Both the position numbers and the translations under genes were made by a program. The notes below the pieces were generated by a model that worked only from the letters and a program-made list of their open reading frames with translations, had not been told where the DNA came from and did no database searches. From Verrucomicrobiia bacterium (GTDB lineage Bacteria; Verrucomicrobiota; Verrucomicrobiia; Limisphaerales; DSYF01), in assembly GCA_035765895.1 (NCBI GenBank), contig DASTWL010000047.1, forward strand, positions 1 through 64,000: 64,000 nucleotides of DNA, read 5' to 3'. Positions 1 through 15,735 of the stretch are shown one piece after another; the first letter of the stretch is position 1; each line of letters opens with the position of its first letter.

Positions 1-240
1 CAACTCGCATGGCACTTGGGCGCGGCGCAATCGGACATCGCCTTCCTTGAGGCCGAGAACATTGATTGGGAGCACAACTTCATTTCGTTCGCGCGCAAGA
101 AGACCGGCTCAATCGCCATCATGCGCTTCGATGAAGACGTGTCCGACGTAACGTCCGTCGAATTATCCGCGCATCTTCAGGTGAACTATCCGGCCAATAG
201 CCGGGTATATTCGGCCAGCATCCGGGTAATGGACGGATAG
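1..240 (+). pseudogene. Tyrosine recombinase (phage integrase) remnant
   Basis: The reading frame is open from base 1, so the gene begins outside the window. It starts QLAWHLGAAQSDIAFLEAEN and continues through ENIDWEHNFISFARKKTG. This is the layout of the first part of the tyrosine-recombinase catalytic domain, where a G-A/M-R-x-x-E-x-x-L stretch is followed by a (D/N)IDWE...I...KTG beta-hairpin. The expected arginine and glutamate positions are degraded. After about residue 45 the homology stops and the frame runs into an 11-12 bp periodic repeat that ends it at 238-240. No H-x-x-R box or catalytic tyrosine follows. It is read as a dead integrase truncated by the repeat, possibly the left-end relic of the island. 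Confidence 0.55.
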
Positions 241-350
241 CGTCCGAGCCGATGCTGGCGAATGTCCGGCACGATGTCCGCAGCCGCATTCAGTCCATGC
301 CCACGGAATGTCCGCGCAGCATCCGCTCAACGTCCGATGAATCGTCCGGG
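140..350. repeat. Degenerate 11-12 bp periodic TCCG repeat
   Basis: TCCG tetramers start at 142, 154, 166, 189, 221, 243, 265, 277, 311, 322, 333 and 345. The gaps (12, 12, 23, 32, 22, 22, 12, 34, 11, 11, 12) are all near multiples of 11-12. Missing positions usually carry one-base variants (GCCG near 200, TCGG at 211, ACGG near 233). The units outside TCCG are not conserved, so this is phased rather than a true tandem array. It overlaps the dead end of the integrase remnant and does not look coding. Confidence 0.6.
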
Positions 351-555
351 CAATGGCCATCCATAAGTTGCATGCCGCCCTGGCAGATGGAAGGAACCAG
401 CGTGGCGGCCTTGCAATTACCGTGTGATGTGCCGACGCGCACACCGGCGTATCTGGGTCAAGCTGGTTTTGCCACTCCTCTGTCGAAGGGAGGTTAGGCG
501 GGGGCGAGGCGTGCGTGCGCGATGTGGGGCAACCAAGTGGCGATCCCACGGGATG

Positions 556-15021: not shown

Positions 15022-15735
15022 ATGCAAGTATTCTTTGCCCGATGGAAGGTCGCGTTCCTGACTGGACTGGCCGTGATTCTGCCAGCGGCGGTTTCCGTCG
15101 CAATCGTCATCTGGATGTTTGGCGTCGTGTCCCACTTCACCAATACCTTGCTCGTCTTTGTGCCGTCAGCTTGGATGCAGACACGGGAGGGCGTGGGGCT
15201 GCTCTATTGGAACTTGCTGGCACTGGCAGCAGCGATTCTGCTGATCAGCCTGGCGGGCGGGATTGCGCGCTACTATTTCGGCCGGAAGTTGATCCAATTG
15301 GTGGACAGGATTCTCCTGCGCGTGCCCCTCTTCAACAAACTTTACCGTTTGATGAAACGTGTGAATGAAGCGCTGACCGCCAATCAGGCCAATACTTTCA
15401 AACAGGTGGTGCTGGTGGAATTCCCGCGCCCGGGCCTCTACGCCCTTGGATTCCTCACCAGCATGCACAATGACGAAATGCGGGCCCGAAGCCACAAGCC
15501 CCTGGTCAGTGTGTTCGTGCCCGCACCACCTCTTACCAGTGGGTCCGTTGTCCTGGTGCCGGAGGCGGATGTCATCAAACTCGAAATGTCCGTGCCGGAG
15601 GGCATCAAATTCATCATGAGCTTGGGAGCGGTGTCGCCATCGTATGGCGATGCCTTTCAGGGCAAGGAAGGAAACCGCCCAGCTACAGGTGTAAGTGTGC
15701 CAGCCCCCGCGCTCTTGGAACCCCAGACCCGTTGA
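15022..15735 (+). CDS. DUF502 family membrane protein
   Basis: 237 residues from MQVFFARWKV. There are two N-terminal membrane helices (LTGLAVILPAAVSVAIVIWM and NLLALAAAILLISLAGGIA), then the family signature GRKLIQLVDRILLRVPLFNK, IYxxxK region LYRLMKRVNEAL, and the beta-rich C-terminal part (VLVEFPRPGLYALGFLTS, then VFVPAPPLTSGSVVLVPEAD). Function unknown for the family. The start is set by alignment to the decayed paralogue at 556-815 and by the promoter position; longer in-frame extensions run through the promoter. The coding sequence ends with about 25 residues of extra tail. Confidence 0.85.
   Translation: MQVFFARWKVAFLTGLAVILPAAVSVAIVIWMFGVVSHFTNTLLVFVPSAWMQTREGVGLLYWNLLALAAAILLISLAGGIARYYFGRKLIQLVDRILLRVPLFNKLYRLMKRVNEALTANQANTFKQVVLVEFPRPGLYALGFLTSMHNDEMRARSHKPLVSVFVPAPPLTSGSVVLVPEADVIKLEMSVPEGIKFIMSLGAVSPSYGDAFQGKEGNRPATGVSVPAPALLEPQTR

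Follow-up and report, generated by a model that had tools for sequence, protein, structure and literature searches.

Our analysis identifies a helically phased array of TCCG words at the start of a contig from a Verrucomicrobiia bacterium, and we propose that it is probably the leftover cis-acting site of a decayed integrative mobilizable element: an array on which an HTH protein would dock beside oriT, exposed in this genome by an internal deletion. It would be a transfer or partition site of a recognisable kind, yet an unusually elaborate one. The stretch that was analysed, referred to here as the window, comprises 64,000 nucleotides and opens contig C47; the genome (G000) is 4.64 Mb in size and is divided into 96 contigs. 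Its relevant features, in window coordinates unless another contig is named, are as follows.

1..141, plus strand: tyrosine integrase remnant, 47 codons of the catalytic domain, 96% identical at the amino-acid level to G042:C126 over 47 aa
141..142, no strand: junction between the last base of nucleotide homology to integrases and the first base of the first TCCG
142..356, plus strand: phased array, unit ANYR-TCCG-N3-4, period 11.2 bp
142, 154, 166, 189, 221, 243, 265, 277, 311, 322, 333 and 345, plus strand: starts of the exact TCCG words
near 177, 200, 210, 232, 254, 288 and 299: degenerate array cells, assigned by eye
C57:1-192, minus strand: 5' part of a closely related integrase, at a contig end

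The phased array and its statistical support

The twelve exact TCCG words span positions 142-348, with steps of 12, 12, 23, 32, 22, 22, 12, 34, 11, 11 and 12 bp between consecutive starts, and fit best to a period of 11.2 bp with a vector strength of 0.935 (0.904 at 11.27 bp); of 5000 random placements of 12 sites, none attained the vector strength of the window when periods between 5 and 30 bp were tried. The original prediction of twelve TCCG words on an 11-12 bp grid is confirmed by these values, with the qualification that the grid is gapped: exact TCCG fills 12 of approximately 19 cells. The sites lie on one DNA face only, at full turns. The remainder of each unit had been described as unconserved; this is true of most other spacer columns, which are near background, and untrue of positions -4 (A in 10/12 units), -2 (pyrimidine in 12/12) and -1 (purine in 12/12), all as seen in units that were picked for TCCG. 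The sole TRF match in the array is a two-copy, 21-bp stretch at 187-228, in keeping with the view that this is not a simple tandem repeat. SS and AA/TT dinucleotides within the array follow the same 11.0-11.2 bp rhythm, which may be a by-product of the TCCG word itself. Reading frames across the array do not exceed 128 aa, and a Pfam search with the plus-strand frame over 1-240 gave no match. An Rfam search of both strands of 1-1500 gave nothing beyond one spurious match (E 1.7), and DNA similarity searches of the array in 40 genomes returned chance-level matches only (best off-self E 0.0045).

Arrays were compared by a phased score, S, which for TCCG in the window is 11.22. Sequence of the same composition does not reproduce it: among 1000 dinucleotide shuffles of segment 130-370 none attained this value for any 4-mer tried (maximum 6.30), and when the full 64 kb was shuffled 20 times, TCCG scored 5.32 at best. 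A search for other phased arrays, as the prediction had called for, covered 464 kb of the genome, made up of the window and 20 sampled 20-kb stretches, one of which shares 3 kb with the window, and the 4-mer scans excluded the 16 lowest-complexity 4-mers. Nothing as strong was found; the runner-up 4-mer at periods of 10-12.55 bp scored 7.74 against 11.22, and the top score at the other periods tried (7-8.75 and 12.6-14.75 bp) was 8.70.

The integrase remnant and its junction with the array

Comparison with the 3' ends of integrase genes in relatives by blastn places the end of homology directly beside the first TCCG. Matches end at 141 in four loci (L039, at 92%, and L041, L042 and L043); the L045 match stops at 139 and that of L040 at 137. 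The loss of the integrase end is therefore real at the nucleotide level, with homology stopping at 141; the array as its cause is not supported, and a deletion junction explains the arrangement better. The protein-level match overruns the junction by four codons, to 153, which we take as a chance extension. A Pfam search with the stub itself gave no match, and a full-length relative of it matches Phage_integrase (1.4e-10). One G042 integrase matches both the end of contig C57, at 86.5% nucleotide identity, and window positions 1-141, at 92.2%; approximately 376 bp of integrase between the two pieces was not found assembled.

Contig C57 also carries a stretch that by eye resembles the 3' end of a tRNA-Cys gene, where ARAGORN reports no tRNA. 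Around relatives of the integrase, ARAGORN found a tRNA gene in 17/30 loci, tRNA-Cys in 10 of these 17, and in the G025 genome tRNA-Cys precedes the integrase (L042). Paired direct repeats of approximately 12 bp occur upstream of the integrases in L041-L062 (for example, AAGTGCCAGTGA twice in L049); in several loci they lie between the tRNA gene and the integrase, and they resemble arm-type integrase sites. On the minus strand at 546-815, facing the integrase stub, a conserved gene is represented by its N-terminal part; by eye it resembles a membrane-protein gene, and it seems to carry a frameshift. A match to it is found in a related open frame at 15028-15228.

The simplest account of the integrase-array junction is a deletion event, and the stub and the array were most likely joined by an internal deletion within one mobile element. 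No hairpin of the kind described below was seen in the window copy, and searches of G000 found no relaxase at E <= 1e-60 and no HTH gene at E <= 1.

Related arrays beside relaxase genes

An intact counterpart is present in G025 (C18), where an integrase 83% identical at the amino-acid level precedes a minus-strand gene for a TrwC relaxase (Pfam PF08751, 1.5e-80). Between the relaxase and a non-coding stretch that holds the array lies a small minus-strand gene without a Pfam match. The G025 TCCG array (S = 8.85, T = 11.25) lies approximately 1.15 kb upstream of the relaxase start; its orientation relative to the integrase is that of the window, and the two features are a few kb apart. After the array come genes for a C5 methyltransferase, for a protein that resembles DrmE with a match below the cut-off (E 0.00065), for a NERD/helicase protein and for another helicase. 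In G155, a relaxase 90% identical to that of G025 is accompanied by a non-coding block similar by eye, an array and then an HsdM-like gene, also by eye. The cargo adjoining these arrays (L356:6603-16142; L374/L091) is defence-like, with a C5 methyltransferase and DISARM-like genes in one element and an HsdM-like gene, assigned by eye, in the other.

Relatives of the G025-type relaxase are present in 48/293 genomes of the order. We assembled 42 relaxase-upstream regions, namely those of 40 of the listed relaxases with G025 and G155, three of the regions being shorter than 500 bp. A TCCG array with S >= 5 was found in only 13 of the 42; all 13 lie on the strand opposite the relaxase, and 10 are within 1.2 kb of its start. 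Background matches at S >= 5 numbered four in 400 kb sampled from G000 (maximum 5.81) and six in 163 kb of G098 (maximum 6.2), so that the weaker arrays among the 13 are not strong singly, and it is their shared strand and place that constitute the evidence. Of 18 stretches around relatives of the integrase, several of them cut by contig ends, only two (L356 and L364) reached S >= 5 for TCCG. The closest integrase, that of G042 (96% at the amino-acid level), comes from an element with a TCAA/AACG array in place of a TCCG one; the deletion account thus needs the further assumption of mosaicism, with integrase and array modules reassorting. The ties between the window array and the arrays of relatives are limited to word, period, strand and linkage to an integrase.

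A pattern search for TCCG arrays matched 29/196 genomes of the order, and the matches are heterogeneous. They include ATCCGTGTTCA-type repeats, the perfect arrays of G098, matches in coding frames and two look-alikes, L091 and L081. G098 (L098-L106; L138:7999) holds many perfect 11-bp arrays, including TCCGAAGGGTA, TCCGTAGTACC in inverted pairs, TCCGCTCGTAT and TGCGTCCCCCA, and gave 45 + 36 pattern matches against none in the reversed control. Copies of an interspersed ATCCGTGTTCATCCGTG-like repeat with a period of approximately 10-12 bp were met at L011:1501-1530 and L013:1501-1530; a literature search by exact word for this repeat found nothing.

The hairpin, the HTH gene and the ATPase gene

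In relatives the arrays come after a hairpin motif like GGCACGCSTTACCCCTT-loop-AAGG, which would represent oriT. The motif, a regular expression that was itself set by eye on loci of this type, is present in 29/40 loci, mostly 436 or 448 bp ahead of a small HTH gene. We aligned 26 of the 33 distinct hairpin sequences, which are related to one another, leaving out L438, L450, L462, L466, L467, L472 and L473, and set a five-pair stem by eye. Changes in the stem are paired: 93.1% of its cells are paired, and its covariation score is 0.297 compared with 0.080 (sd 0.026) in shuffles, none of 500 being as high, with slid versions of the stem scoring at most 0.148. Two of the five hairpin measures were no better than shuffles (both-side pair changes, 318/500; pair types, 244/500). 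These two null measures and the protein-level overrun at the junction lower our confidence in the main reading slightly.

The 41 HTH loci in named genomes carry mostly Verrucomicrobiota titles, with a few from Latescibacterota, Acidobacteria, a Methanoregulaceae archaeon and unplaced bacteria, which may be mis-binned contigs. Counts over 40 loci exclude L485, which has 15 bp of upstream sequence. Upstream of the HTH genes TCCG occurs 379 times on the plus strand and 107 times on the minus strand, with a plus-strand excess in 36/40 loci. A TraL/StbB-like ATPase gene lies downstream of the HTH gene in 36/37 loci with room for one, and upstream, 19/30 loci with room have a relaxase gene on the minus strand. 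In NCBIfam the ATPase matches TraL PRK13886 at E 6e-18, although its 65 bits fall far short of the curated cut-off of 360; it also matches Pfam CbiA (3.8e-8), and its BLASTP match to R388 StbB covers the P-loop only (E 0.13).

A structural model of the HTH protein has a mean pLDDT of 69 and helices at residues 6-16, 28-39, 44-53 and 60-69. A Foldseek search with the model returned no match with E <= 0.001; the highest VIA-align Z score, 6.3 for the GcrA DNA-binding domain, is within the common range, and the absence of StbA (7pc1) from its matches excludes nothing. A profile of the protein retrieved five weak matches among solved chains, mostly designed proteins by name, and not 7pc1, which StbA itself does retrieve in such a search.

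The original prediction had read the near-helical phase as a sign of DNA shape or of multi-site protein binding. Binding of protein at many helically phased sites is supported by context, since the related arrays adjoin the hairpin, the relaxase and/or the small HTH gene and match in period, and the HTH protein is the candidate to bind there; DNA shape alone does not appear to be needed.

A half-turn lattice and its differing words

The lattice was studied in 39 array regions, those of 36 HTH loci (L448-L483) with L356u, L374u and L406; L484-L488 were excluded because their words differ or they lack upstream DNA. Distances between TCC words over these regions peak at 6, 11, 17, 22-23, 28 and 34 bp. 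Searched over 5.2-6.2 bp, the TCC period is significant against random placements (p < 0.05) in 36/39 regions, with a mean of 5.637 bp (sd 0.034), half of 11.27 bp; the regions are not independent, 31 of the 39 falling into two blastn-linked groups, and the effective number is nearer nine. In the window the TCC period is 5.59 bp, a result attained by 11/1000 random placements. Most relatives thus have sites at every half turn, whereas TCCG in the window keeps to full turns.

The lattice does not continue into the HTH gene: this was considered and rejected, TCC in the first 60 nucleotides being mostly in antiphase, with 9/80 in phase. Within the first 30 codons of the HTH genes of L448-L481, TCC often stands at +3, +14 and +25, in exact 11-bp steps that for the most part do not share the phase of the lattice upstream.

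Different words accompany different types of HTH protein. The 13 loci of FDP type all have a plus-strand excess of TCCG (the weakest, 5 against 4), and a diverged HTH locus, L440, has 8 against 0. A second HTH type, in two loci, goes with TTGC/GCTGC (S 8.8 and 5.5), and a third, also in two loci, with TCAA (S 6.1 and 6.8); all four of these non-TCCG loci show a small TCCG excess too (2-4 against 1). No clear array was seen in L487. Periods differ by word, at 10.45-11.15 bp for TCAA/AACG and 11.55-11.85 bp for TGCT/TTGC. Such a pattern would be expected if a DNA-binding protein and its sites had co-evolved, although the non-TCCG groups are small.

We tentatively suggest a half-turn code, a bolder idea that may well be wrong, in which the HTH protein would coat 200-400 bp beside oriT, touching a short word at each 5.64-bp step, on one DNA face and then the other, and keeping the DNA underwound at approximately 11.27 bp per turn. 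Protein and word would co-evolve, and arrays would switch word (TCCG, TCAA, TTGC/GCTGC) on a lattice of approximately one helical turn.

Comparison with known systems

The closest parallel is with plasmid R388, which like these elements has a MOBF relaxase, encoded on the opposite strand. In R388 two sets of five 9-bp repeats with two-nucleotide spacing, the stbDRs, lie upstream of stbA; according to the published account, StbA binds the stbDRs and acts in plasmid stability and transfer, and StbB is ParA-like (PMC3098194). In our analysis of the R388 sequence, in which stbA was identified by its match to 7pc1, the relaxase and two further genes are on the minus strand, followed by the gap that holds the repeats and by stbA and then stbB on the plus strand; the best word in the upstream region is ATGC, with T 10.7. 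In both systems direct repeats phased at approximately 11 bp lie between oriT, or in the relatives the putative oriT hairpin, and the gene for a small DNA-binding protein, which a gene for a ParA-like ATPase follows. Unlike the two sets of 9-bp repeats in R388, the arrays of the relatives are built of numerous short, degenerate words, frequently one per half turn; the words vary with the type of HTH protein, the elements are integrative elements of Verrucomicrobiota, and the HTH protein is not significantly similar to StbA (hhalign E 0.35).

RP4 is a MOBP plasmid. The downstream ATPase resembles its TraL in matching PRK13886 below the curated cut-off. RP4 also has TraK, a DNA-binding accessory protein that, according to the same source, binds between nic and its own gene (PMC3098194); no TraK-like name emerged from the annotation searches with the HTH protein, which sets these elements apart from RP4. 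In the portions of the literature covered, no account of such phased arrays in Verrucomicrobiota was found.

Alternative explanations

An unlikely alternative, though one to be taken seriously, is that the array is mainly a centromere-like partition site, with the HTH protein and the ParA-like ATPase placing or segregating the excised circular element. The ParA-like gene directly downstream in 36/37 loci with room fits this, as does R388, where StbA, by binding stbDRs, controls both the stability of the plasmid and its transfer (PMC3098194). However, the oriT-like hairpin beside the array (29/40) and the relaxase gene upstream (19/30) speak against it, and the 15 plasmid matches of the ATPase listed of 614 are all annotated as conjugal transfer protein TraL.

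It is improbable that the array is a decayed minisatellite, in which an 11-bp unit expanded by slippage and later mutated. The perfect 11-bp TCCG arrays in G098 show such units in another genome of the order, yet decay should be even, and here TCCG is intact in 12 units, chosen for TCCG, while most columns are near background. The non-integer period of 11.2-11.27 bp and the half-turn sites, single strand and regular place of the arrays in relatives also argue against slippage.

Replication iterons of the lambda O type lie inside phage initiator genes, and their short words share the 11-12 bp phasing. An origin of this kind within a lost replication-initiator gene is a very improbable source of the array. 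At least 120 viral stretches fit a four-unit TCCG pattern, and many of the 80 listed are, by eye, 11-12 bp arrays in frames resembling replication initiators. However, a control with the reversed word gives 72 stretches with arrays as strong or stronger, some in similar frames: S >= 7 is reached by 24/72 in the control and by 24/80 among the forward matches listed of at least 120, and S >= 8.5 by 19 and 10. Phage arrays were on this ground rejected as the source of the window array, geometry being all that is common. In addition, no initiator gene was seen here; the G025 element has a relaxase and defence-like cargo, and the array is non-coding and in relatives lies beside transfer genes, unlike the phage iterons in initiator-like frames.

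Phage frames that are initiator-like by eye (L236-L315; controls L169, L202, L205 and L233) often hold phased arrays of 11-12 bp, the word varying (TCCG, GCCTGTC) and TCCG arrays occurring in both coding orientations.

A chimeric assembly, joining an integrase stub and an array from different places, is very doubtful. In its favour, the window begins at a contig end and the 5' part of the integrase is on another contig, yet a random chimera would not predict that in G025 an integrase and an array should again occur together, in this orientation and within a few kb of each other. Chance or composition is already refuted: TCCG is not rare (349 in the 64-kb window), but the score was attained in 0/1000 segment shuffles and 0/20 window shuffles.

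A proposed model of the element and its decay

Our preferred reading, that of a protein-docking array left by a decayed mobilizable element, suggests the following model. Intact relatives have an integrase gene on the plus strand, then a relaxase gene and often one further, small gene on the minus strand, and then the oriT-like hairpin and the phased array; past the array come either two plus-strand genes, for a small HTH protein and for a ParA ATPase of TraL/StbB-like type, or the cargo directly. Many copies of the HTH protein would sit side by side on the array, with the DNA at approximately 11.27 bp per turn, and the resulting nucleoprotein complex next to oriT may control transfer and/or segregation, as StbA does on the stbDRs of R388; a role of the array in transfer or partition is proposed by this analogy. 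In the present genome the element would have decayed, an internal deletion taking the 3' end of the integrase, the relaxase and the hairpin, so that the integrase stub now leads directly into the array.

An odd periodic stretch of DNA thereby comes to mark a family of Verrucomicrobiota mobile elements, two examined members of which carry defence-like cargo. The arrays also form a natural data set of protein-DNA lattices with varied words and slightly varied periods, on which the idea that a transfer or partition protein may set the helical repeat of its own DNA is directly testable.
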